DNA of 64,000 nt from Bythopirellula goksoeyrii (GTDB taxonomy: Bacteria; Planctomycetota; Planctomycetia; Pirellulales; Lacipirellulaceae): contig NZ_CP042913.1 of the NCBI RefSeq assembly GCF_008065115.1, positions 2,392,338 through 2,456,337 of the forward strand, written 5' to 3'. Below the pieces are notes generated by a model, which saw nothing but the letters and a program-made list of their open reading frames with translations, did not search any database and was not told the DNA's origin. The number at the start of each line of letters is the position of its first letter. The first letter of the stretch is position 1. Below are positions 14,319 to 33,439 of the stretch, in pieces. Made by a program: the position numbers and the translations under genes.

Positions 14319-15206
14319 CTACAAGGACTTATCCAATACATGGAATTTAGGGGCATTTTGGACTCTTTGATTTGCGACTTCGATGTCGCGAATGAAAAGG
14401 GTGTTCCCTGATGAGTTGCTTTTCTCCTGCAGACGAGTTAGTTTCCGATGCCATGGATCATAGTTGTACGGACAGAAACCGTGATTCTTCAACGTGCTGA
14501 TAATCGCTTCCTCGTCAAACCCATAACGTGTGCCACTTCCATTTAATTCGATCAAAATGAAGTTCAGAGTCTTGTCCGTCAGCACCCGCTCAGCCCCTTT
14601 GAGTACCATCGTTTCGTACCCCTCAACATCGATCTTCATCATTGTGGGGACTTCCCTTAATTCCTCATCTAATGCAATGACGGTAACTTCAATGACCTTG
14701 CCAGCAGTTTCAGCGGTAGTCAGAACATGGTTCATGCAGCCTTCGTCTTCAGTAAACCTTAGGGTAGATCGGCTATCGCCTACACCTTGATTGAAAGCCT
14801 GTGTGCGATCGAGCAAGGAATTGACTGCAAGATTTTTCATCAATCTCTGGTAGGTTTCTGGCACGGGCTCGTAGCAGATCCCTCTTGCCCCCGCCACTCC
14901 ACAGGCCAAAATCGTGTAAGAACCTACGTTAGCTCCGACGTCTAAAAAGAGATCTGTGTCGTTCAAGGCATGTAAGACGAAAGACATATCGTGGAACTCT
15001 TGGAGGCCAGAAAAGATATTGCCGGTTAATCCTCTCTCACCTGGTGACACAATGATTTTGGAATCATTCACCCAGTTCACAAGTACTTTGCCCGGTACCA
15101 GTCTGCTACCTATTTGCCATTTGGCATACCTAATAAGAGCAGCAAATTTTCTGTGCCTATTCAGCGGACTGTTGGCTATAAATCGTAGAGTACTAGCAAA
15201 GGGCAT
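14319..15206 (-). CDS. FkbM family methyltransferase
   Basis: The 295-residue protein has motif I FLDVGANVGSYTILACG, then CYEPVPETYQRLMKNL, and the FkbM-typical MMKIDVEGYETMVLKGAE and FILIELNG. FkbM proteins are SAM-dependent O-methyltransferases often found in glycan clusters, where they methylate sugar hydroxyls. The position between a GT4 gene and a Wzx flippase gene supports that role. A second FkbM gene occurs at 48657-49496. Confidence 0.9.
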   Translation of the reverse strand: MPFASTLRFIANSPLNRHRKFAALIRYAKWQIGSRLVPGKVLVNWVNDSKIIVSPGERGLTGNIFSGLQEFHDMSFVLHALNDTDLFLDVGANVGSYTILACGVAGARGICYEPVPETYQRLMKNLAVNSLLDRTQAFNQGVGDSRSTLRFTEDEGCMNHVLTTAETAGKVIEVTVIALDEELREVPTMMKIDVEGYETMVLKGAERVLTDKTLNFILIELNGSGTRYGFDEEAIISTLKNHGFCPYNYDPWHRKLTRLQEKSNSSGNTLFIRDIEVANQRVQNAPKFHVLDKSL

Positions 15207-15290: not shown

Positions 15291-16877
15291 CTAGTTCTGC
15301 CAAGCAGAAGAGTCGAGAAATAGCGATCTCAGCAGAAAGCTGTCCCAGGGAGGGGGAATGATACCAGCCAATTCAGCAAGACGACGACTAAAAAACAATC
15401 GCATGAACAACAAGAATAGTGCACAGAAGATTGCGGTGTTGGCTGCAAGCAGAACGAAGTATTGACCGTCAGTCGTAATGGCATTCCCAATCTTTACAGT
15501 AATCAATGCTGCTCCCATTGAGCAGAGCCAAGCTGGCATTAACGCTTTCACGATAAGTGATATAGATATCTTGAAGTTTGATAAGACAATCATCGTAAGG
15601 GCCAACGAAAACCCTGTTTGCAAAGTGGCAACAATCAAGGCTATGCCGGTAATATTAGCTCCAGTGATGCTTGCCGCCAGCCAGACGCTCAGCATGAGGA
15701 AGGCCCCTTCTAGTAGGAATAAGTTTGCGCTTCGTCGAAACTCTCCCCGAGACGTAATGGCTGCATGAACAATATCAGGAATAAGTCGAATTGGAGCAAC
15801 AATTGAAAAGATCTGCATCAGAGGCACAGCCATTGACCACTTCTTGTCCCAAAGCACAGCTTCGAGAACTTCAATATTGATTGCTACGAGCAAACATATC
15901 GGACACGAGACTAACATCATCACACGAATCGTTTTGATTATCGCTCTCGATTGGCGACCAGGGTCAGTTGCCAAGTGGCTCAGAACTGGAAAGAGTACAA
16001 ATTGCACATTACTAGCCATTAGAATGGCGAATTGTGCTGTAAGCTGATAACCGAAAAAATACTGGCCGACTAGACTAGGTGATACCAGCAAACCAAGGAC
16101 GATGTAATCTCCATTGCGTGCAAGCCCCCGTGCAAATGCGGAGAGCATTGCCCACGTGGAATTTCCGAGAATGCTCGGCCACAAGTGAAGCTGCCACCCC
16201 CCTTTCCAAGGAGTCATTCGCGTTAGAATATAAAAGGCAACGCATTCAAATAAGGATGCAAGAGGAAGAGGCAAGACGAAACTCATGGCTCCATATCCTC
16301 GGTAGGCCAAGTAAATAACTCCCAGGTACCGAAGAAAAAACCAGACGGTTCCGACCCAAGCGAGTGTTCTAAACCGGAGTTCAATCCGAAGTTTTGCTTT
16401 GAATAGTGTCGTTGGTGCACTAATTACTATCGTCAATGCAAATACCCACAACAGAGGCACCAACTGCGAATCACCATAAAGCGCAGCAATCCAAGGAGAC
16501 GCGGCAGCCAAGAAGATTCCCGTAAAAAGACTGAAACATATGCCGATCCAAAAAGCAGGAGCGGTCCATTTTTCAAAGAGTGCTGGTCCCCGCTGAATCA
16601 GTACTTGGGCAACTCCCCCGTCGTTCAATATTCGGAGAAAGTTAGCGATTGAGGTAGCAATAGCAAACACGCCGAAGTCTTCATCCAACAGTAATCGTCC
16701 GAGAACAATCTGCGTAACAAAGCTGAGCAACTTGCCGACGGCCAGAGTTAAGGATAACCAGGTAAACCCACTTCCTGCAGTCTTCCCGAGAGCCTTTTGA
16801 GAAGGAAGGCGTTCTCCACTAACCACTTCGGCAGTTGATGTATTCTTACCATCGTTTTCCGACTGAAGAGATTGCAT
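15291..16877 (-). CDS. Wzx-type polysaccharide flippase
   Basis: The 528-residue protein has a short polar N-terminus and 12-14 membrane segments. The N-terminal signature GRLLLDEDFGVFAIATSIAN and the following DGGVAQVLIQRG match the MOP-superfamily lipopolysaccharide/exopolysaccharide exporters (RfbX/WzxC group). It would flip undecaprenyl-linked repeat units across the inner membrane. It is clearly paralogous to the flippase at 33955-35511, which shares this signature almost residue for residue. Confidence 0.9.
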   Translation of the reverse strand: MQSLQSENDGKNTSTAEVVSGERLPSQKALGKTAGSGFTWLSLTLAVGKLLSFVTQIVLGRLLLDEDFGVFAIATSIANFLRILNDGGVAQVLIQRGPALFEKWTAPAFWIGICFSLFTGIFLAAASPWIAALYGDSQLVPLLWVFALTIVISAPTTLFKAKLRIELRFRTLAWVGTVWFFLRYLGVIYLAYRGYGAMSFVLPLPLASLFECVAFYILTRMTPWKGGWQLHLWPSILGNSTWAMLSAFARGLARNGDYIVLGLLVSPSLVGQYFFGYQLTAQFAILMASNVQFVLFPVLSHLATDPGRQSRAIIKTIRVMMLVSCPICLLVAINIEVLEAVLWDKKWSMAVPLMQIFSIVAPIRLIPDIVHAAITSRGEFRRSANLFLLEGAFLMLSVWLAASITGANITGIALIVATLQTGFSLALTMIVLSNFKISISLIVKALMPAWLCSMGAALITVKIGNAITTDGQYFVLLAANTAIFCALFLLFMRLFFSRRLAELAGIIPPPWDSFLLRSLFLDSSAWQN

Positions 16878-17230: not shown

Positions 17231-18112
17231 TTAAAGATCAGCTTGTCCTGAATCTTCAGTCTCCACTGCTTCCGAGCCTCTCGTTCCTTCGTAATTCTTC
17301 CTTATTGAAGCACGCTCCTGCTCAGTAAAGAAGTGCTTTGCATACTGCGAATTGACGATAGTATCCAAGTAGCTAGGTGGGATCACGATGCCTTCTTTCA
17401 AAGCCCTATATTTCTCCGCATAAACGGTTTGTTCACCAGGTGTTCCCGGGAGTAGGGGATTACTAGGGTCTGCGGTAATTGCGAGATTTACCATTTCGAT
17501 TTCAGGGAGCCCCAGAAAATCTGCTACCAGTCTTGATTTCTTCTCATCAGTTATTTCGGTCCTCATAATGAGTACATCATAGGGCCCTTCTGAGAATTTG
17601 ACAAAACCATTCTGCTTGTCAAAAGGATAATCGTAGACATTGACTCCCAGAGCCGCCTGAAACTCGGTGGTAAACCACTGGAGCGGATGCAAGTAACGAT
17701 CTGATTGCAGATAGGACTCGCAAAATTCACTCAACACTTGATCAGAGTCGATGCTCTCCCCTTGCGTTGAGTCCCTATCTGCTTGGCTTGCTTGCTGACC
17801 AAAGTCGCTTCGTGCAAAGGTAGAAAGCATGTTATCAATAGGATGCCGTACTAGAGAGATTATTTTAGCAGGCTTTCGCCTGAGAACTATGTTTCTACAT
17901 GCCCAGCGGGCGGATCCAGACAGATTCTCTGATGTTATCTTCTTTGGATCCAAGTAATGCGTTCCAATCACGAAGACCCTATGCTTTCTCAGGGTTCGAT
18001 ACAATGCTACGGACCCCGATCGCTCCATGGAATAGACAATGACCGGAGCGCGAAGCAGTAGGAAATAGTTCACGTTGAGATAGAGAGCACGCTTGATTTT
18101 TTCTATATACAT
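17231..18112 (-). CDS. Sulfotransferase-like / capsular polysaccharide synthesis protein
   Basis: The 293-residue protein begins with VIVYSMERSGSVALYRTL (about residues 24-41), which has the form of the 5'-phosphosulfate-binding loop of sulfotransferases, and continues with KIISLVRHPIDNMLSTFAR (about residues 82-100), which fits the 3'-phosphate-binding segment. Proteins of this kind are annotated as sulfotransferases or as putative capsular polysaccharide synthesis (NKWYS) proteins. It would move sulfate from PAPS to a glycan. It is the first gene of the minus-strand locus. The P-loop is weaker than in the next sulfotransferase, so the assignment is less sure. Confidence 0.65.
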   Translation of the reverse strand: MYIEKIKRALYLNVNYFLLLRAPVIVYSMERSGSVALYRTLRKHRVFVIGTHYLDPKKITSENLSGSARWACRNIVLRRKPAKIISLVRHPIDNMLSTFARSDFGQQASQADRDSTQGESIDSDQVLSEFCESYLQSDRYLHPLQWFTTEFQAALGVNVYDYPFDKQNGFVKFSEGPYDVLIMRTEITDEKKSRLVADFLGLPEIEMVNLAITADPSNPLLPGTPGEQTVYAEKYRALKEGIVIPPSYLDTIVNSQYAKHFFTEQERASIRKNYEGTRGSEAVETEDSGQADL

Positions 18113-18445: not shown

Positions 18446-19408
18446 ATGACCGAGCGTACTGATGACGAACTCTTACAGAAACCGATTTTAGTTGTCGGAT
18501 GTGGCCGCAGTGGGATGAATTTCCTTGGCGATGCAATTGCACAATATCCAACGTTGGCGGTTGCCCATGAGCCTCGATTAGTTTGGAAGCGAGGCAACGA
18601 CCGGCTTTCCGATTTATTACGTCCGCATCATGCACGGCCGGAAGTCATTGCCGATATTCGAGCTCATTTTGCTTCGGTCGTTCGCAAAGAGGGCAAGCAG
18701 CGCTATATCGACGTCACTCCAGGCAACGCGGTCCGCCTCGATTTCGTCGACAAAGTTTTTCCCGACTGCCAGTATGTCCACTTTATTCGAGATGGAGTGG
18801 ATAACGTGCTTTCGATGCGAAGGTTCTACGCCGTCGTCGCACGTATCCTTCGCAGAAATACTCCAAAATTGCAAGACAGTTACATGGCGCGCCGCGCGAA
18901 AGAATCGCGTCTGCGGCAGCTCCCCTACATGGTTGTGGAGGCGATACGAAGGATGGCGCCTTCTTGGCTCCTACCTCTGGTAGGACCCCCGGTTGCAGGT
19001 GTCCGGCTTCCCGCAATGTCGGCTATGCGACGCGAGATGGACCTTCTTGACGTCTGTTTTCTCCAATGGAGGTATTCGGTCGAATCAGCCTGTCAGTTTG
19101 GACGTAGCCTCCCGCCGGGTCGTTACATGGAGTGCCGTATTGAAACGTTCTGCGAAGAGGACCTAAGACGGATTTACGGTTTTCTCGGATTAGAAATCAC
19201 GCCGGAAGCACTCGAGTTCGTGCGCAAGAGTTTCCAGCCAGGGCGAATTGGCCCAGCGATGCAGGATTGCTTTCCCGAGGAACTTGAGCGGCTCAAGTCC
19301 ATGGTCGAGCCGACGATGCAATGGATCGAATCGTATCAACGGGACCATCTCTCCTCTGATACGAGCACACCGTCGTCCACTGGCAACCCCGATCGACATA
19401 CGACTTGA
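18446..19408 (+). CDS. Sulfotransferase family protein
   Basis: The 320-residue protein has a clear 5'-phosphosulfate loop VVGCGRSGMNFLGDAIAQYP (residues 16-35) and the 3'-phosphate motif YVHFIRDGVDNVLSMRRFY (about residues 111-129), the two hallmark PAPS-binding sites. Near the C-terminus are RYMECRIETFCEEDLRRIYGF and FQPGRIGPA, typical of bacterial carbohydrate sulfotransferases. AAGGAAAG lies about ten bases before the ATG. It faces away from the polysaccharide locus but is next to it, and is followed by a STAS gene and then the convergent ATP-sulfurylase fusion, so glycan sulfation is the likely job. Confidence 0.88.
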   Translation: MTERTDDELLQKPILVVGCGRSGMNFLGDAIAQYPTLAVAHEPRLVWKRGNDRLSDLLRPHHARPEVIADIRAHFASVVRKEGKQRYIDVTPGNAVRLDFVDKVFPDCQYVHFIRDGVDNVLSMRRFYAVVARILRRNTPKLQDSYMARRAKESRLRQLPYMVVEAIRRMAPSWLLPLVGPPVAGVRLPAMSAMRREMDLLDVCFLQWRYSVESACQFGRSLPPGRYMECRIETFCEEDLRRIYGFLGLEITPEALEFVRKSFQPGRIGPAMQDCFPEELERLKSMVEPTMQWIESYQRDHLSSDTSTPSSTGNPDRHTT

Positions 19409-19854: not shown

Positions 19855-22047
19855 TCAGTCCACAAATAGCGGCCTCTTCGCTTCGCGCAACTCCAGCAGG
19901 TAATTGGAAACTTCCTCTCGCATGCACCAGTCGGGTACTGGCTGGCCTTCTAAAAGTAAATTCCGAATCATGGTCCCTGAGATCGATCGTAAATGTTTTT
20001 CATTGGGGGCAGTGGACTCGACCATGGCATCTTTCTCCTCCGAATAATACACCGTATCAAAGAACACAGGGGTGATGCCAATGTCCCCCAGTTGATCAAA
20101 CAAGTCTTTGTTCTGGTTGGCGGCGTAGAAGTTGCCCACGCCCGTATGATCTCGCCCCAAGACGAAGTGCGTGCATCCAAAATTCTTGCGACACAGTGCC
20201 GTAAACACCGCTTCGCGTGGCCCGCAGTAGCGTGAGTACGTGCTGAACGCCGCCAGTAGAGAGTTGGGGAGTCTTGCCGTGATCAGTCGCTCGTAGGCTC
20301 CCAGGATTGCCTCTTGAGTGAAATCTCCCGATTTTTTTGGGCCGATGACAGGATGAATGAGCACGCCGTCGGCATTGCTTCGTTCACAGGCATTTGCGAT
20401 GACATACTCGTGCCCTCGATGGGGAGCATTGCGGGTGTGAAACGCAATAATCTTCGACCAACCCTTAATCTCAAACAGCATGCGAGTTTGTTCGGGCGTC
20501 AGTTGGTAGGGCGAGCGGGCAATACTCGCTGGGCCCAGATATTCGATGGGTCCACCCAAGAGTGTGACACCTCGGCTCATAAACCGAGCCACCCCCGGGT
20601 GGTTCTTGTCGGTCGTGCCAAACCAGCGGCTGGCGACGCTCTCCAAGTCCACTTCGTATTTATCCTCCAGATGGAGAATTGCTGTCGATTCGCCGGTGCG
20701 GTGGTCGATGAGCCGAATCGATTGCCCCGGTTGATAGGCGGCAAATTCCTGGCTCTTGCCCTGCAGAATAATCGGCATGGTCCAAATATCACCGGAGGGC
20801 AGGCGAAAGTCATTGAGCACACTCTCCAATTGTGCCTCAGTCATGAAGCCATTCAGAGGCGAATAGACTCCATGGGCAATCTGTTCGATGTCCATCGCCG
20901 TTTCAAGATCGACTTCGATCGCTGGAAGTTTGCTGAGCAACTCCTTCGGCATCGGACGATACGAAGCCACGCTATGCTTCTCAATATCGCTTCGCCCATG
21001 GAGAGAAGGGAGCAGCAGGGGGCTCGATTCCAGCAGATCCTCGATCCGATACCCATCTAACGACCGCCGGAATCGCTCGATCATGCTCAGCACCATGTCG
21101 ACCGCCCCTACGGGGTACTTGCCGATCGCCGTTTCGGCGGCCAGAACGAGCCCATTCGCCCCGTCCAGCAAGGTGTTAGTGATATCGTTCAACTCCGCCC
21201 TGGTCGGTTTACGATTAACAAGCATCGACTCGAGCAGGTTCGTAGCCACATGGACTGGTTTGTTGGCCATGTTCCCCTTGCGGATTATCGCCTTCTGCAA
21301 AAACGGGATATTCTCTAGCGGCACTTCGCGCGACAAATCTCCCCGATCGATCAGGATCGCATCCGATTCTGCCAGGATTTCATCCAGATTGCGCACACCC
21401 AGCTTGCTCTCGATCTTGGAAATTATCGTCGATCCTGGCCCCGCATACTTTCGCAACAGGGCAACATCCTCGGCCGTATTAGCAAAGGAGAGCGCAAAAT
21501 GGGTGACCCCCATCTGCCGGCCGATCTCAACCGCTCCAATATCGTCATCGGTCAGCGGCGGCAATTTGGGAGCCGGATCAATCACTACGGCCTTGTTCGA
21601 GCCAACCTTCCCGCCGTTTAATACCACGGTATCGGCACCAGTCTCATCCGCATGGAGTACCAGCAACACCACGCCATCGAAATCGAGTCCAATCAAGTTA
21701 TTCGGCCGCAATCCCGCAAAGAGGGTCGGAGGAGTCAGCGATAGGCAATCACCCGTGCCAACCACCGTCTCGGCGGTCAGCCGCACATGCTGGCGATCTT
21801 GCACCACCACGTCCTTCTCCATCGTGCCGGTCCGCACTTGGGCCCCTTCCGTATCGAGGCAAATCGGCGTCGACGAATGGTCCTGAATAATGCGAATCGT
21901 CTCTTCGACTTTGCTGAGCGGGGTATGCGACAGATTGATACGAAACAAGTCCACGCCGCGAACCTGCAGCCGTTCGATCACTTGGCGATTCAAGGAACTG
22001 GGGCCGAGTGTGCAGAGAATATTGATAACGCGATCCCGTGTGGCCAC
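19855..22047 (-). CDS. Pyruvate kinase / ATP sulfurylase fusion protein
   Basis: The start is placed at a GTG (22047) with GGAAGG seven bases upstream; an upstream frame to 22122 adds residues unlike either domain. The 730-residue product has two parts. Residues 5-335 are pyruvate kinase-like: CTLGP, LFRINLSH, CLDTEGAQVRTG, the lysine in SKIES, IDRGDL, VATNLLESM and AAETAIGKYPV, so the main catalytic residues are kept, but the usual C-terminal allosteric domain is missing and DTKGPE reads DTEGAQ. Residues 365-725 are sulfate adenylyltransferase with HTRNAPHRGHE, GRDHTGVGNFY and SISGTMIR. The ATP-sulfurylase half makes APS from sulfate and ATP. The kinase half could supply or regenerate ATP locally (inference). 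No separate APS kinase is seen nearby. Confidence 0.9.
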   Translation of the reverse strand: MATRDRVINILCTLGPSSLNRQVIERLQVRGVDLFRINLSHTPLSKVEETIRIIQDHSSTPICLDTEGAQVRTGTMEKDVVVQDRQHVRLTAETVVGTGDCLSLTPPTLFAGLRPNNLIGLDFDGVVLLVLHADETGADTVVLNGGKVGSNKAVVIDPAPKLPPLTDDDIGAVEIGRQMGVTHFALSFANTAEDVALLRKYAGPGSTIISKIESKLGVRNLDEILAESDAILIDRGDLSREVPLENIPFLQKAIIRKGNMANKPVHVATNLLESMLVNRKPTRAELNDITNTLLDGANGLVLAAETAIGKYPVGAVDMVLSMIERFRRSLDGYRIEDLLESSPLLLPSLHGRSDIEKHSVASYRPMPKELLSKLPAIEVDLETAMDIEQIAHGVYSPLNGFMTEAQLESVLNDFRLPSGDIWTMPIILQGKSQEFAAYQPGQSIRLIDHRTGESTAILHLEDKYEVDLESVASRWFGTTDKNHPGVARFMSRGVTLLGGPIEYLGPASIARSPYQLTPEQTRMLFEIKGWSKIIAFHTRNAPHRGHEYVIANACERSNADGVLIHPVIGPKKSGDFTQEAILGAYERLITARLPNSLLAAFSTYSRYCGPREAVFTALCRKNFGCTHFVLGRDHTGVGNFYAANQNKDLFDQLGDIGITPVFFDTVYYSEEKDAMVESTAPNEKHLRSISGTMIRNLLLEGQPVPDWCMREEVSNYLLELREAKRPLFVD

Positions 22048-22574
22048 TGATTTACCTTCCGTATTATTTATCGTTGCTTCTTGGTTAGCGCAAGCTGGCC
22101 AGCGATCTAGTAACCGAACCAAACAGCGCAGGAATGACGAAACCTACATTCTCCCTATCAGCCTGACACGCATAGTGGAGAATGAAGGAAATCTCCATTC
22201 TAGCTAGCTGTCTCAGAACGGGCAAACATGCTAGAAGCTTGTGCAGGCTTGGGATGATCGTATCGAATTAGTCTACCTTGCCAAAGGCATCTTGAACTCT
22301 CAGCAGTCAAGTCCAACTGGCTTGAGGATAGTCCAGAAAGAGTCTCCCTGGATTGAAGGAGATATCGTGGCGTACTCAGGCCAATAAAGTAGGGGTTTGT
22401 ACGCAATTTATCGAGCCACTCAGCATTCTCTTTGCTTCCAAGTTAGGCGGGCCCTATTATACTGAAATGGTGGAGATCGCTAGAAAAGCCATCCACATTC
22501 GTTTCGCTTCCTAACCATATCCTCACAGGTTGCTCGACTGCTCTCGCCCGCGATTTACTTCCGGATCAACTCTG
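22048..22574. other. Divergent regulatory region
   Basis: About 527 bases between the minus-strand fusion gene and a plus-strand PEP-CTERM gene. No gene-like frame was accepted. The plus-strand promoter candidate is listed separately; none was recognised for the minus-strand gene. Confidence 0.45.
22432..22460 (+). promoter_or_regulatory. Candidate promoter for the SGNH-like PEP-CTERM gene
   Basis: TTGCTT (22432-22437), a 17-base spacer and TATTAT (22455-22460) form a reasonable sigma-70-type pair about 115 bases before the ATG at 22575. Confidence 0.4.
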
Positions 22575-23741: not shown

Positions 23742-23817
23742 ATTGGTTAATAGATGTCATAACGCTTGTACTCCTACACAGTCCCGAGTTTATCGAATTT
23801 ATGTTGCTACACTAGAG

Positions 23818-25116
23818 ATGAACACAATGATTAGCTTGAAAACCGAGTGGAATATACTTACTCTTCTAGTCACTTTCGCCCTTCCAGTCTCTCCTGTGCT
23901 TGCTGTATCGATCGAAACAGTCCTGGTCGGCAATCCTCACAATGCTCCGGATCATGATTACTTCGCGCCAGGCAACGTTCTGCAGCAAGGGCCCAACGAT
24001 GGCGGGCGGGGATCAGTGGCATATAACTACGAGATCGGTAAATATTTGGTGACCAATGCACAGTACGCCGAGTTCTTAAATGCAGTTGCTTCTGAAGATG
24101 CTCACCTCCTGTATAATACAGCAATGAATAGCGCTATATATGGCGGCATTACAAGAAGTGGAACAAGTGGGAATTACTCCTATACGCTAAAACCAAATAT
24201 GGCCCACAAGCCAATCACCCAGGTAAATTTCTGGGATGCCGCACGCTTCACCAACTGGCTTCACAATGGCCAACCCACTGGCGCCCAAGACGATACTACG
24301 ACCGAAGATGGCGTATACACTCTAGGGGGAGTCACAGTTCCAGACAACTTGAGTGTTTTTCGAAACGTAGGAGCCAAGTGGTTTCTTCCGAATGAGGATG
24401 AATGGTATAAAGCCGCTTTCCATCAACCAGCATCACAGGGGGGGGATTCCGATGATTACTGGATGTTTCCTACGGCGAGCAATGTACAACCGATCACTGC
24501 AACTGCCGATTCGGTAGGGAACATCAGTAACCCTGGATCGAATGTGGCAAGCTATCAAGGGACTGCAAATTGGAATGGTTCAACGAATGGCAATCTCACC
24601 ACAGTTGGGAGTGCGGGACCGCTTAGCGAAAGTTACTATGGTACAGCCGATATGGCAGGAAACGCGTGGGATTGGTTAGAAACGATTGTCTACACCAGCG
24701 TCAATGTTCGCGATGAAGATGGGCGTAGGGTTTGGGGCGCAGGGCATGACAATAATCCTACGAATTTCCGTGCCGATCATAATGTTCATCATTTCGTTGC
24801 AACAGAGGACCGACGAAATCTTGGCTTCCGCGTCGCCAGATATGCCCAGGAAGCACTCTTTGCTGGGGACTTTGATCTCGACGACGATGTCGATGAGAAT
24901 GACCTCACCGATCCAACTCTTGGTTGGTCAGCCCGCTACGGCATCGATTTAGATGGATCGGATTTTCTTAATTGGCAGCGCCAATTCGGTAGTAGCGACG
25001 TTCCTCAAACATCTTCGGCGACAGTTGTGCCGGAGCCTTCGAGTAGTTTGCTGCTCATAGGACTCGTCACCGTCGCGGGGCGCTTCCTGTATCGAGACAT
25101 TGGCGGACTGGGTTGA
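23818..25116 (+). CDS. SUMF1/FGE-fold PEP-CTERM protein
   Basis: The ATG at 23818 (or 23827) starts a signal peptide ending near SPVLA. Residues about 40-350 show the formylglycine-generating-enzyme (SUMF1) fold: NYEIGKYLVTNAQYAEFLNA, WDAARFTNWLHNGQP, KWFLPNEDEWYKAAFHQP, GNAWDWLE and NLGFRVAR. The cysteine pair needed for sulfatase maturation is not seen, so it is more likely a structural or binding member of the family. A dockerin-like stretch with FDLDDDVDENDL and GSDFLNWQRQFG follows, then a PEP-CTERM tail (VPEPSSSLLLIG, ending in YRDIGGLG). It is probably a secreted, surface-sorted protein. Confidence 0.85.
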   Translation: MNTMISLKTEWNILTLLVTFALPVSPVLAVSIETVLVGNPHNAPDHDYFAPGNVLQQGPNDGGRGSVAYNYEIGKYLVTNAQYAEFLNAVASEDAHLLYNTAMNSAIYGGITRSGTSGNYSYTLKPNMAHKPITQVNFWDAARFTNWLHNGQPTGAQDDTTTEDGVYTLGGVTVPDNLSVFRNVGAKWFLPNEDEWYKAAFHQPASQGGDSDDYWMFPTASNVQPITATADSVGNISNPGSNVASYQGTANWNGSTNGNLTTVGSAGPLSESYYGTADMAGNAWDWLETIVYTSVNVRDEDGRRVWGAGHDNNPTNFRADHNVHHFVATEDRRNLGFRVARYAQEALFAGDFDLDDDVDENDLTDPTLGWSARYGIDLDGSDFLNWQRQFGSSDVPQTSSATVVPEPSSSLLLIGLVTVAGRFLYRDIGGLG

Positions 25117-28855: not shown

Positions 28856-31800
28856 ATGGCATCAAAGAGTAGCTTTTGGGATCGTTTGCGGGTGGAAATT
28901 ACCAGTACAGTGTTTCGTACGCAATCGCGACGAAATTCAGCGACAACGGCTCTCAGCGTAGAGTCGCTCGAAGCGCGCCGTTTGCTTTCGATCACGCCCC
29001 CCTTTATTCACCCAACTAATGGCAATTTGGTAGTTGAAGGTTCCGACCAGGCGGATCAGGTGACAGTTTCAGAAATAGATCTCGGGAGAATCCATGTCGA
29101 AATATTGAGCAATGGTGAAACTCACAATAGCTACTTTTCGAAGTCAGAGATCTCCTCTCTCATTCTCCGTGGCAACGGTGGCGACGACATATTGACGAAT
29201 CAAACGGACATTTCGATGAATGCTTATGGTGGAATGGGCGACGATACGATTACGGGAGAAAGATCATCCAACATTATCTATGGCAATGATGGGGACGATC
29301 GAATTGTTGGAGGGGATTTCGATGACCGTATTTACGGTGGAGCCGGAGTGGATTCTATTCGTGGCGGTCAAGGCAATGATACCATCGGAGGGGATGAAGG
29401 GAACGACTTCCTACTTGGAGAGGGGGGCGATGATTTGGTTTTTGGGGGCGATGGTGACGATGTTCTGGATGGGGGAGCCGGAAATGACGATCTCCGCGGT
29501 GAAGCAGGGCAAGACCTCTTGCGGGGAGGTTCTGGTAACGATCGCCTGGATGGAGGGGATGATGACGACTATCTTCTCGGACAATCTGGTAGCGACGTAC
29601 TCCTAGCTGGAACGGGCAATGACCGGCTTCGTGGCGGAGATGGTGAGGACACACTGTACGGTCAGCAGGGAAATGACATACTGCTGGGTGATGATGACAA
29701 TGACGTCCTATATGGCAACGATGGCGAAGATACCCTTGATGGTGGAATCGGCGACGACACGCTAAGTGGTGGAAACGAAAATGATACCCTCTACGGTGGG
29801 ACCGGTCTCGACAGTATTCACGGAAATGCCGGCGATGATCGCTTGTTTGGGGGAGATGACAACGATGCACTCTATGGGAACGAAGGCAACGACGTCATCC
29901 GCGGTAATAATGGGGATGATAAGCTGTACGGCAGCGAAGATAACGATGTGCTCTTAGGAGGTATTGGCAACGATAGTCTGAGCGGCGGCGATGGCAATGA
30001 TACTCAATACGGCGAAGAGGGAAGTGACACTCTTATCGGCGAGACTGGGGAAGACATGCTCTACGGTGGCGAAGGAGTGGACACTCTTGATGGAGGTGAT
30101 GGCAATGACGTTCTCTACGGTGGAGAGGGCGACGATTTCCTATATGGCGGTCACGGCGCCGATATCCTCCGAGGCGAGGAAGGCTCTGACTCACTAAGCG
30201 GAGGTATTGGCGATGATACTCTGTTTGGAGATATCGGCAACGACAGTCTCTACGGAGGTGATGGCAATGACGACCTTAATGGTGAGGAAGGAGACGACAC
30301 TCTTCAAGGAGACGAAGGTAATGATCAATTAGATGGAGGTGCCGGTGACGATGCTATCTTCGCGGGCATGGGAAATGACATAGTCGTTGGCGGCGATGGC
30401 CACGATCGCCTATACGGAGACCTGGGTGACGATCTCCTCTATGGCAACGACGGAAATGATGACATCTTCGGTGGCGGCGGTGATGACATTCTTCAAGGAG
30501 GTGCAGACGACGACAATCTTCGTGGGCTGGAAGGTAATGATCAACTTTATGGCGATGTCGGCAACGACACCTTGCTAGGTGGCGACGGTCATGATTTGTT
30601 GCAAGGAAACACCGGCAATGACACCCTCTATGGCGGTCTAGGCAATGATCTTCTTTTTGGCGGCGATGGTGAGGATCTGCTTTACGGAGAAGCCGGGATC
30701 GACTACCTCCAAGGGGATGCCGGCAATGACCAGCTTCACGGCAATGAAGGGAATGATACGCTACTAGGCGACGAGGGGAATGATCAGCTCAACGGAGGGG
30801 CCGGATCAGATCAAATTCTCGGCGGTACAGGGAATGACGAACTCGCCGGAGGAGATGGCAATGACTTGCTGATCGGCGGAGAGGCAATCGATACCCTGTC
30901 TGGAGGCGAAGGCGATGACATACTCATCGGCGGCACGACTTCGCATAGCGTGGCAGCACTGGATATGGCTCTTTCTATCTGGAGTTCAACTGCTTCGTAC
31001 GACCAGCGCCGAATGACCCTAGAAAGCGAGGGCTTCTTGGCTCGGCTCTATTCGGAAGTGACAGTTTTCGACGACTACGTTCCTGACAGTGTCACCGGAG
31101 ATGGAGGACAAGATTGGTTCTTCTTGCCTGGGGCGCTGTCGATTTACGATCCCACGGGTAACTCTGTGAATGAAGTCGGCCACTCACACCAAGGCACTCA
31201 GGATCATTCTCACCTCCCCGTACCGGTGATTGGTCATTTGCCGGTCGTGGAGGGTTTTGCTTTTATCGATTCACTGGACGAGATCTATGGTCGTCAAGAG
31301 AACGAGGCACTCCATACCCTAGTTCCTCATGCGGGGATGGATAGTAGTCGTCAAACCGAGCATCTCGGCTTATTCGAGCTGGTAAAGTACGCTGATGTGA
31401 CGCATGCCGCCATTGCCAGCGGCAACTGGAGTGATCCGAGCAACTGGGCCGGTGGAGTCGTGCCTGGCAATGGCGCCCGTGTGCTGGTTCCTATTGGAGT
31501 TTCAATTACGGTCGACAGAGTGATGACCGCCAGGTTGAAAACCATTCGAGTGGACGGCAATCTTTCGTTTGCCACGAACGCCAATACCCAACTCCTCGTC
31601 GACACCATGGTAGTGGGTGACACGGGAGAACTACAGATCGGGACTGCTGCGGCACCAATTTCTCCCAATGTCACAGCACGACTACGGTTCACCAATGATG
31701 GCCCCATTGATCGCAATGTCGATCCCTTTGGCATCGGTCGTGGTCTGATCACCCATGGCAGTGTGGAGATGGTAGGGGCCGAAGTGACCTCTTACGCAGA

Positions 31801-33439
31801 AATGCTAGGCCCGATTACCGCAGGCACCACAGCTTTGACACTTTCCAGCGCACCGGTGGGCTGGAAGTTCGGCGATCAGATCGTGATTGCCGGAACAGAT
31901 CCGAGTCAGAATCAGGACGAAGTGCGCACTATTATTGGTGTCTCAGGCAACTTGGTCATTGTCGCCCCGTTGGTACACGATCACCTTCCTCCCGAGGGTG
32001 GGCTCTCGGTCCATGTGGCCAATTTGACCCGCAATATAGTTATTGACTCCGAATCGTCCTCAATCACCCGTCGCGGCCACGTGATGTTCATGCACAACAA
32101 GGATGTGCAGATTCAAAACGCCGGCTTCTATACCTTAGGCCGAACGGACAAGCTCAATCCAATCAACGATTCGGTCGTTGACGAGAATTGGAATCTCGTG
32201 CCGGGCACGGGGAGCAATAATCGCGCGCGCTACCCAGTTCATTTTCATCGTTCTGGCACACTCGCCACCGGCGATCCTGCAGCGGTCTCAGGAAGTATCG
32301 TTATGGATGCGCCAGGATGGGGCTATGTCAATCACAGCAGCTATGTGGAATTCATTGATAATGTTTCTTATGGTATCACTGGTTCAGGATTCGTGACCGA
32401 AGTGGGCGATGAAGTTGGTCTCTTTCAGGGCAACCTTGCCATGAGAACCTATGGCTCTGGCGAGGAAATCGATTCTCGCCGGCCAATCGGCGATTTTGGT
32501 CATACCGGGGATGGCTTTTGGTTTCAGGGAGCTGGTATCGAGGTGATCGACAATTTTGCAAGCGGAGCGGACAATGCCGCTTTTGCCTACTACACCGAAG
32601 GCCTATCGTTCAATGGCATCCGAGCCACCTACCTCACTGCCAATCTGCTTGACCCATCCATCGCCAACGGGGCCGAGTCGATCGGTATCGATCGCGTCCC
32701 CATTCGTAAATTCACCGGCAACACGGGCTATGCCTCTGAGATGGGGCTACTCGTACGAAATCATTTACGATCTGCTCCTCGTACTCAGTCGGGATTGATT
32801 GAAGATTCCACATTTTGGAATACGGAGAAGGGAGTCGATCTGCCCTATTCAGAGCAACTGGTATTGAGAAATCTGCACATCGTCCGGAATCCTAGCTCTC
32901 TGACTTCGACTGGAGTTGACGGGAACATCGATTCAAAAGACATAATGTACGAGAACCTTGAGATTGCGGGGTATTACACGGGGATCGATGTTGCCAGAGA
33001 TGGATTTGCCATAGTCAACGGCGGCACTTTTACCACGCAGAGTGCAATTCGTGTTCGTACTGCCAACAATGATAATCGCTTCGTTCTTGTTCAGGGCCCG
33101 ATTACTTTCAACCCCACGCCGTTCAATTTCACATGGATGCGGGAAATCGAAATGGTATTCGGGGCGTTTTACACTTCCAGTGGCATTGATCGCATCTTCA
33201 ATAGTAGTAATGTCACACTTAACTACGGCCCCTATCAGAATCAAAGGCTTTACTTCCTAGAACAAGATCCTGACGCCGTGGTCTATCCCGTACCCGAGGA
33301 AAATGTCCCTTATTACTATATTGGCCTTACCTCGCAAGAATTCCAAGATCTTCACGGCTTGACACCTGGTGGCGAATTGGCACCCTCGAACACCTACACT
33401 GTCGAGCGTATCCGTGGGCTCCTGGCACCGAACAATTGA
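28856..33439 (+). CDS. Giant RTX / G8 / beta-helix extracellular protein
   Basis: The 1527-residue protein has no classical signal peptide but carries SVESLEARRLLS at residues 34-45, the planctomycete extracellular N-terminal motif. Residues about 105-695 consist of roughly sixty RTX nonapeptides of the type GGxGNDxLx, which bind calcium and fold as a beta-roll. Residues about 760-830 are His-rich (HSHQGTQDHSHLP). Residues about 850-970 form a G8 domain (SGNWSDPSNWAGGVVPGNGA), and the remaining part is a right-handed parallel beta-helix with RARYPVHFHRSG near residue 1125, as in CEMIP/TMEM2-type proteins, some of which act on hyaluronan. It is probably a secreted, calcium-stabilised surface or matrix protein; polysaccharide binding or cleavage is an inference. 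Confidence 0.9.
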   Translation: MASKSSFWDRLRVEITSTVFRTQSRRNSATTALSVESLEARRLLSITPPFIHPTNGNLVVEGSDQADQVTVSEIDLGRIHVEILSNGETHNSYFSKSEISSLILRGNGGDDILTNQTDISMNAYGGMGDDTITGERSSNIIYGNDGDDRIVGGDFDDRIYGGAGVDSIRGGQGNDTIGGDEGNDFLLGEGGDDLVFGGDGDDVLDGGAGNDDLRGEAGQDLLRGGSGNDRLDGGDDDDYLLGQSGSDVLLAGTGNDRLRGGDGEDTLYGQQGNDILLGDDDNDVLYGNDGEDTLDGGIGDDTLSGGNENDTLYGGTGLDSIHGNAGDDRLFGGDDNDALYGNEGNDVIRGNNGDDKLYGSEDNDVLLGGIGNDSLSGGDGNDTQYGEEGSDTLIGETGEDMLYGGEGVDTLDGGDGNDVLYGGEGDDFLYGGHGADILRGEEGSDSLSGGIGDDTLFGDIGNDSLYGGDGNDDLNGEEGDDTLQGDEGNDQLDGGAGDDAIFAGMGNDIVVGGDGHDRLYGDLGDDLLYGNDGNDDIFGGGGDDILQGGADDDNLRGLEGNDQLYGDVGNDTLLGGDGHDLLQGNTGNDTLYGGLGNDLLFGGDGEDLLYGEAGIDYLQGDAGNDQLHGNEGNDTLLGDEGNDQLNGGAGSDQILGGTGNDELAGGDGNDLLIGGEAIDTLSGGEGDDILIGGTTSHSVAALDMALSIWSSTASYDQRRMTLESEGFLARLYSEVTVFDDYVPDSVTGDGGQDWFFLPGALSIYDPTGNSVNEVGHSHQGTQDHSHLPVPVIGHLPVVEGFAFIDSLDEIYGRQENEALHTLVPHAGMDSSRQTEHLGLFELVKYADVTHAAIASGNWSDPSNWAGGVVPGNGARVLVPIGVSITVDRVMTARLKTIRVDGNLSFATNANTQLLVDTMVVGDTGELQIGTAAAPISPNVTARLRFTNDGPIDRNVDPFGIGRGLITHGSVEMVGAEVTSYAEMLGPITAGTTALTLSSAPVGWKFGDQIVIAGTDPSQNQDEVRTIIGVSGNLVIVAPLVHDHLPPEGGLSVHVANLTRNIVIDSESSSITRRGHVMFMHNKDVQIQNAGFYTLGRTDKLNPINDSVVDENWNLVPGTGSNNRARYPVHFHRSGTLATGDPAAVSGSIVMDAPGWGYVNHSSYVEFIDNVSYGITGSGFVTEVGDEVGLFQGNLAMRTYGSGEEIDSRRPIGDFGHTGDGFWFQGAGIEVIDNFASGADNAAFAYYTEGLSFNGIRATYLTANLLDPSIANGAESIGIDRVPIRKFTGNTGYASEMGLLVRNHLRSAPRTQSGLIEDSTFWNTEKGVDLPYSEQLVLRNLHIVRNPSSLTSTGVDGNIDSKDIMYENLEIAGYYTGIDVARDGFAIVNGGTFTTQSAIRVRTANNDNRFVLVQGPITFNPTPFNFTWMREIEMVFGAFYTSSGIDRIFNSSNVTLNYGPYQNQRLYFLEQDPDAVVYPVPEENVPYYYIGLTSQEFQDLHGLTPGGELAPSNTYTVERIRGLLAPNN
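29169..30940 (+). repeat. RTX-coding tandem 27-bp repeats
   Basis: A coding repeat array with a 27-base unit encoding the calcium-binding nonapeptide GGxGNDxLx, about sixty copies with considerable codon divergence. Such arrays are prone to length change by recombination. Confidence 0.85.

Follow-up and report, generated by a model that had tools for sequence, protein, structure and literature searches.

A conserved pyruvate kinase-ATP sulfurylase fusion of planctomycetes and rhizobial plasmids with a possible role in sulfate activation for polysaccharides

The activation of sulfate is energetically uphill, and the pulls known to drive it are the GTPase CysN, pyrophosphatase and adenosine 5'-phosphosulfate (APS) kinase. 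A 64,000-bp stretch of the Bythopirellula goksoeyrii genome (contig NZ_CP042913.1, positions 2,392,338 to 2,456,337), here called the window, includes an open reading frame (ORF) in which a pyruvate kinase (PK)-like half is joined to an ATP sulfurylase (ATPS). The fusion partners of ATPS named in PMC2275785 are APS kinase, pyrophosphatase and APS reductase. PAPS synthases, which are ATPS-APS kinase proteins that make 3'-phosphoadenosine 5'-phosphosulfate (PAPS), likewise combine sulfate activation with another enzyme that uses these adenylates, but the partner there is an APS kinase and here it is a PK, the APS kinase being encoded by a separate gene. The fusion of ATPS to inorganic pyrophosphatase, described for stramenopiles and haptophytes in PMC2275785, follows the same logic of a partner pulling an unfavorable reaction; that fusion removes pyrophosphate (PPi), while the PK-ATPS would recycle ADP and leave PPi to other enzymes. 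The same reaction set is found in the in vitro PAPS cascades with PK and phosphoenolpyruvate (PEP) in PMC9885120, where purchased PK and recombinant PAPSS1 are separate proteins mixed by design. No report of a PK-ATPS fusion was found in the open-access literature searched (titles and beginnings of abstracts), and PMC4921024, a compendium of gene fusions, does not use the term "pyruvate kinase" in its main text.

The PK-ATPS ORF spans positions 19855-22122 of the minus strand, with 755 codons counted from a TTG and no internal stops; residue numbers throughout refer to this 755-residue frame. A GTG at position 22047 is located seven bases 3' of a GGAAGG sequence, close to the point at which the proteins of the nearest relatives start. 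Because of this spacing and of the start position of these relatives, the GTG is most likely the true start, which defines a gene of 730 codons at 19855-22047, the coordinates given in the original prediction, an earlier reading of the window made from its letters. That reading of two enzymes in one frame was confirmed by Pfam for both halves, with bit scores of 223.2 for PF00224 (cutoff 30), 225.7 for PF01747 and 133.7 for PUA_2, while the NCBIfam scores are under the cutoffs of TIGR01064 (259.1 vs 306.4) and TIGR00339 (300.6 vs 322.95). Pfam detected the barrel domain of PK followed by PUA_2, with no C-terminal regulatory domain of PK, also as anticipated, and no APS kinase domain (PF01583) on the chain. 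An AlphaFold2 model based on 12 sequences has a mean pLDDT of 82.5 and a pTM of 0.70; its confidence is low in the segment linking the halves, a region weakly conserved among the fusions (11-58% identity to the window protein). Among the 50 Foldseek matches listed, the first five are ATPSs (top structures 8a8d, E 1.9e-39, and 1v47, E 3.4e-38), the other 45 are PKs (top structures 4qgc, E 8.6e-33, and E. coli PykF 4yng, E 1.4e-32), and none is a PK-ATPS fusion.

The N-terminal half resembles pyruvate kinase (EC 2.7.1.40) in its A/B-domain fold and in the checked phosphotransfer and Mg2+ residues, with about 33% identity to the best solved PKs. It differs by the missing allosteric C-domain and, in or close to the substrate pocket, by Asp in place of Ala, Ser in place of Gly, Asn in place of Gln and Ala in place of Ser. 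The C-terminal half has the PUA_2 and catalytic domains and the HXXH, GRD and SGTxxR motifs of the homo-oligomeric Sat (PF01747), with about 40% identity to the Thermus and Methanothermococcus ATPSs. Unlike Sat, it reads HxRN for QXRN and GRDHT/S for GRDHA, has a PK attached, and is devoid of the Cys cluster near the C-terminus, although some stand-alone ATPSs are also devoid of this cluster.

The fusion is a conserved family and not an artefact. Of 43 genomes from the taxonomic family of B. goksoeyrii, 10 carry it in one frame without stops, the window's included (genomes are designated by G numbers and loci by L numbers); nine of these proteins run to the end and that of G026 is without the C-terminal motifs. 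An even sample of the phylum (392 genomes) gave 98 with a match at <=1e-55, which covered both halves in only three (the window's genome, G342 and G308) and the ATPS part only in the remaining 95. The class sample included three carriers in 397 genomes (the window's, G017 and G308). A search of 72,556 plasmid records identified two with >=80% coverage of the fusion, Sinorhizobium chiapasense pA and an Ensifer adhaerens megaplasmid, both deposited as complete and coding for proteins about 45% identical to the window protein end to end. The set of 14 sequences analyzed here consists of the 10 from the same family, those from two further genomes of the phylum and those from the two rhizobial plasmids. 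The same two-domain order is found in one frame in all 14, two of them on plasmids deposited as complete, and this rules out, to near certainty, the frameshift or assembly error between the halves that would have undone the original prediction.

A scan of contigs found two close relatives and one ordinary PK (L015, labelled Verrucomicrobia and located in G434). The alignment that had recovered the fusion in the class sample detected it in none of 387 genomes of the phylum of G434, a collection with no positive control genome. No phage record out of 50,697 included the fusion at 80% coverage, and of the 30 stretches of viral contigs that fit a pattern none was confirmed. Azospirillum "pyk" matches were discarded, being annotated pyruvate kinases located beside pflA, and the one compared (L090) is without the fusion signature described below. 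In a tree of the PK half (14 fusions and 13 ordinary PKs) the fusions are on one side of a branch with support of 100/100, and in a tree of the ATPS half (14 fusions and 26 stand-alone ATPSs) with support of 100/99; both trees gave long-branch warnings. The stand-alone set was derived from 31 loci, of which L022, L028, L038, L040 and L074 were dropped as an antisense frame had been picked. These topologies fit a single fusion event followed by horizontal transfer.

Thirteen PK positions are invariant in the 14 fusions: R61, N63, S65, H66, D90, R97, K177, K236, E238, R260, G261, D262 and T294. They include the Lys, Thr and Arg residues (K236, T294, R61 and R97) for which the original prediction had proposed an alignment to PK. 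Among the checked residues are also the Mg2+ Glu/Asp (E238 and D262), next to the catalytic Lys, the substrate Thr and the phosphate-binding Arg residues. At what we take to be the K+-determining site the fusions read Gln, and the ordinary PKs Lys (10), Glu, Arg or Ser. Two of the thirteen positions, those of S65 and K177, are variable in the ordinary PKs. PMC10338316 names the Arg and Lys that contact the phosphate, and also states that Glu or Lys at one PK position sets K+ dependence.

Twenty other features of the PK half define a signature: these positions are invariant in the fusions and their residues are found in none of the 13 ordinary stand-alone PKs compared, a small and planctomycete-rich set that may account for some of them. 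One, Thr91, is also Thr in E. coli PykF and in 2e28. With respect to E. coli PykF the fusion has Asp259 for Ala243, Ser264 for Gly248, Arg265 for Val249, Asn295 for Gln279 and Ala328 for Ser312, and these five substitutions differ from all four aligned PK structure chains as well. The ordinary pocket sequences ARGD[LM]G, ATQ/ATH and LSGET/LSAET are replaced in 14 of 14 by IDRGDLSR (LDRGDMSR in G342), ATN and LAAE; Asp259, which adjoins the catalytic RGD, and Ala328 are found in 0 of 13 ordinary PKs. All motifs quoted in the original prediction are thus in the fusion, but two of them, IDRGDL and VATNLLESM, are not the plain PK motifs they had been taken for, since the 13 ordinary PKs read ARGD[LM]G and AT[QH][ML]L[EDQ]SM. 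The residues equivalent to Ala243 and Ser312 are presumably on the C3 side of PEP, with the Ser in a proton relay with the substrate Thr. Loss of this Ser could spare phosphoryl transfer yet slow ketonisation, or it could admit another substrate. Functional PEP:ADP phosphotransfer by the PK half is close to an even call.

The HXXH, GRD and SGTxxR motifs of ATPS are retained in the window protein and in 12 of the 14 fusions. In PMC3779200 the sulfate of APS is contacted by Gln199, Arg201 and the amide of Ala299. The stand-alone ATPSs have Gln, Arg and Ala in 26 of 26, and in the 12 intact fusions the Arg is unchanged, the Gln is replaced by His and the Ala by Thr or Ser. The remaining two fusions, those of G026 and G308, are short at the C-terminus and have lost TRNxxHxxH, GRDH and SGTxxR, with all checked PK residues intact; the two genes with lost motifs are at L085:9279-11342 and L087:8426-10543. 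The identity of the G026 protein to the window protein is 49% in the ATPS catalytic domain, 69% in the PK and 72% in the PUA domain. Its non-synonymous difference from three relatives is 0.34-0.37 in the catalytic domain and 0.20-0.22 in the PK, a ratio of about 1.7, compared with 0.3-1.3 in six intact pairs; dN/dS was set aside, most pairs being saturated or nearly so at synonymous sites. Since G026 and G308 are located in different parts of both trees, the ATPS active site was probably lost twice, with the caveat for G026 that its assembly is 58% complete. The G026 fusion is still flanked by an antiporter (assigned by cluster) and a sulfotransferase. A PK half of the G026 and G308 type would fit ADP recycling for an APS kinase working with another ATPS, or a different reaction.

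The genes around the fusion, taken with a simple longest-open-frame script and not a gene predictor, point to polysaccharides. In five of the 10 loci of the same taxonomic family (G016, G017, G020, G021 and G026) the adjoining ORF is a Sulfotransfer_1, _3 or _4 gene, and in four (G000, G033, G034 and G036) such a gene is the second ORF; nine of the 10 loci in all have one within two genes of the fusion. Sulfotransfer_3 is not abundant (11 of 12 genomes have 2-10 matches each, and G342 has 0), so that adjacency by chance is unlikely. In the tenth locus, G019, the only sulfotransferase candidate beside the fusion is an adjoining NKWYS-family gene; NKWYS is also the next ORF in G033, G034 and G036 and the third in G000. 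This family, to which Pfam gives the name putative capsular polysaccharide synthesis protein, is no more than a likely sulfotransferase: the member in G000 scores 24.2 bits, under the cutoff of 27 for Sulfotransfer_3, and the G019 and G033 members had no sulfotransferase match. NKWYS is present in six of the 43 genomes of the same family, three in each of two genera, and all six are among the 10 fusion carriers (Fisher p 3.4e-5, relatedness ignored); in G016 it is on the same contig as the fusion, about 17.5 kb off. A CPA2-type cation/proton antiporter gene is found beside the fusion in G033, G034, G036 and G026, as identified by hidden Markov model (HMM) in G033 and G034 and by cluster in the others. 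The sulfotransferase-type neighbours make a dedicated link of the fusion to glycan sulfation, as the original prediction had it, well supported and quite probable in the family of the window, and the APS kinase adjoining the rhizobial fusions agrees with it. Antiporter genes of this type were located at L082:10484-11860, L083:7130-8611, L085:7675-9030 and L088:14845-16101.

In both rhizobial plasmids an APS kinase gene (PF01583) is directly downstream of the fusion (L088:14218-14796 and L089:14235-14813). The two kinases are diverged, scoring 114.5 and 115.2 bits where the six other matches obtained in that search have 192.7-246.4, and their substrate might be another adenylate. The antiporter gene follows, and then PqqD/HprK-related and nucleotidyltransferase genes, identified by HMM in S. 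chiapasense and by look-alike sequence in Ensifer; upstream of the fusion there is an O-antigen-ligase-like gene. Directly downstream of the G342 fusion (L086:2239-4696) are genes for PseB and PseC (NCBIfam over cutoff) and a cytidylyltransferase, possibly a pseudaminic-acid-type sugar locus. G308 departs from this pattern: its scanned neighbours code for a WD40-repeat protein kinase, a phosphatase of the PhoD-like type and one protein without a match.

The fusion is the sole PF01747 protein of the window's genome, and yet it is not the only ATPS of the cell: the genome includes two CysD and CysNC pairs (NCBIfam over cutoff), a stand-alone APS kinase and a third PF01507 protein. With this complement already there the fusion is surplus to assimilation. 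Two ordinary PKs are also encoded, and an ordinary PK was found in seven of the eight fusion genomes searched (G000, G017, G019, G020, G034, G308 and G342) and not in the incomplete G026 assembly.

The observed fusion, its conservation, its intact phosphotransfer residues and its gene context suggest two activities, their coupling and a sulfated product. We propose, with about as much confidence for as against, that the protein is a dedicated sulfate-activating enzyme of loci for exported polysaccharides, which would supply PAPS while its PK half recycles the ADP of APS kinase. The C-terminal half would convert ATP and sulfate to APS and PPi, and a separate APS kinase, encoded by the next gene in rhizobia and elsewhere on the planctomycete chromosome, would convert APS to PAPS and free ADP. 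The N-terminal half would then transfer phosphate from PEP to this ADP, and the ATP formed would feed both steps of sulfate activation; removal of ADP would also free the APS kinase from a dead-end complex. Neighbouring sulfotransferases would use the PAPS to sulfate the polysaccharide or the units from which it is built, and a separate pyrophosphatase would be left to remove PPi. Since ATPS releases APS and PPi and not ADP, the PK half could recycle only ADP from APS kinase, and the local supply of ATP put forward in the original prediction, which is plausible, needs an APS kinase partner. PMC9885120 reports that the PAPS peak was practically missing from a PAPSS1 reaction without PK, that PK and PEP are needed in vitro to remove ADP, which contributes to the inhibition of APS kinase, and that this kinase is caught in a dead-end complex with APS and ADP.

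Several observations weigh against this proposal. The APS kinase gene is on another contig or more than 0.7 Mb off in 11 of 12 planctomycete carriers, and none was found in the 58% complete G026 assembly. No sulfotransferase was detected among the neighbouring ORFs scanned in S. chiapasense (8 of 19), G342 (3 of 3, on a contig of 4.7 kb) and G308 (3 of 14). Both pockets are altered: to the same side of the balance belong the replaced sulfate contacts, the 20-position signature of the PK half and, within the pocket, Asp259 and Ala328. The PK half seems to be useful without ATPS catalysis on the same chain, which pure ATP supply does not predict. These points give some room to a protein in which both halves have been re-specified, the PK half to phosphorylate or dephosphorylate something that is not PEP/pyruvate and the ATPS half to adenylylate another or additional oxyanion, the new activated group being used in glycan decoration by APS-kinase-like and sulfotransferase-like enzymes. 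The pocket changes of the PK half are joint and invariant (14 of 14, 0 of 13 ordinary PKs), those of the ATPS half are as consistent (12 of 12 intact fusions, 0 of 26 stand-alone ATPSs), the rhizobial APS kinase is diverged, and the PK half persists where the ATPS is dead; yet a number of the neighbouring genes are of sulfotransferase families, whose donor is PAPS, and the sulfate-contacting Arg of QXRN is kept in all 12, and we consider re-specification unlikely. The same rather low likelihood is given to its wider form, a two-site enzyme with a PK fold removed from glycolytic PEP chemistry and an altered-pocket adenylyltransferase for sulfate or another oxyanion, which would represent a separate nucleotide-donor route moved between phyla and of which only the PK half would be catalytic in some lineages.

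The PK half could instead have a non-glycolytic role, as a sensor that tunes the sulfate activator or a scaffold that docks it, in the manner of the APS-kinase-like domain of fungal ATPS, which is regulatory and not catalytic according to PMC2275785. The missing PK C-domain, the ordinary PK present in seven of eight genomes and the pocket substitutions would agree with such a role, a version of which the original prediction had mentioned. A regulator is less likely given the full conservation of the checked PK catalytic residues, every phosphotransfer and Mg2+ position among them being invariant in 14 of 14, and the PK half has outlived the ATPS site in two lineages, the reverse of what a regulator of ATPS predicts; we regard the sensor or scaffold as improbable. 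An ordinary assimilatory or dissimilatory ATPS with an incidental PK domain would account for the family match to ATPS, but it is very hard to reconcile with the two CysD/CysNC pairs, with the sporadic distribution (10 of 43 genomes in the family and 3 of 397 in the class sample, the window's genome in both) and with the location in polysaccharide loci. The PK-ATPS fusion is genuine and conserved, with no earlier description within reach of the searches, and the re-specification of both active sites, which is unexplained, could set it apart from a mere further member of the sulfate-activating fusion enzymes. If the proposal of an ADP-recycling sulfate activator is true, the uphill reaction would have one more solution in a kinase driven by PEP and carried on the ATPS chain, the one that biochemists use to make PAPS in the tube. 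Enzymatic sulfation would gain a catalyst that recycles its own cofactor, and loci for sulfated polysaccharides in planctomycetes and rhizobia could be recognized in genomes by the fusion. With its altered pockets, and with two members whose ATPS is dead, the family also offers a test of whether the PK fold has acquired a new use.

Table 1. Location of the fusion gene, its domains and neighbouring genes in the window.
Feature	Coordinates	Strand	Characteristics
PK-ATP sulfurylase fusion gene	19855..22047	-	730 aa from GTG; frame reaches TTG 22122
Pyruvate kinase A/B-domain half, residues 33-341	21100..22026	-	PF00224 E 6.2e-66; Foldseek matches to PKs
PUA_2 domain of ATP sulfurylase, residues 396-529	20536..20937	-	PF14306 E 5.9e-39
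ATP sulfurylase catalytic domain, residues 539-744	19891..20508	-	PF01747 E 5.7e-67; HTRNAPHRGH, GRDHTG, SGTMIR
Small ORF, 137 aa	19405..19818	+	No Pfam match; homologue near fusion in G034
Sulfotransferase (Sulfotransfer_3)	18446..19408	+	PF13469 E 8e-15
NKWYS-family protein, sulfotransferase-like	17231..18112	-	PF10364 E 1.7e-12; PF13469 24.2 bits, cutoff 27
Polysaccharide flippase-like protein	15291..16877	-	PF13440 E 7.6e-47
FkbM-type methyltransferase, same polysaccharide locus	14319..15206	-	PF05050 E 9.6e-19

The polysaccharide locus of the window also codes for an epimerase/dehydratase-like protein (NCBIfam matches under cutoff), and candidate glycosyltransferase frames were identified in it by eye. 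The small ORF between the sulfotransferase and the fusion appears STAS-like, also by eye. A protein with an FGE-sulfatase domain (PF03781) is encoded close to the fusion at positions 23743-25116 of the window, and a second FGE-sulfatase protein near the fusion in G017 (L078:6326-7498). Positions 28856-33439 of the window code for a 1527-amino acid protein with long runs of GGxGxD-like repeats, by eye of the RTX calcium-binding type.

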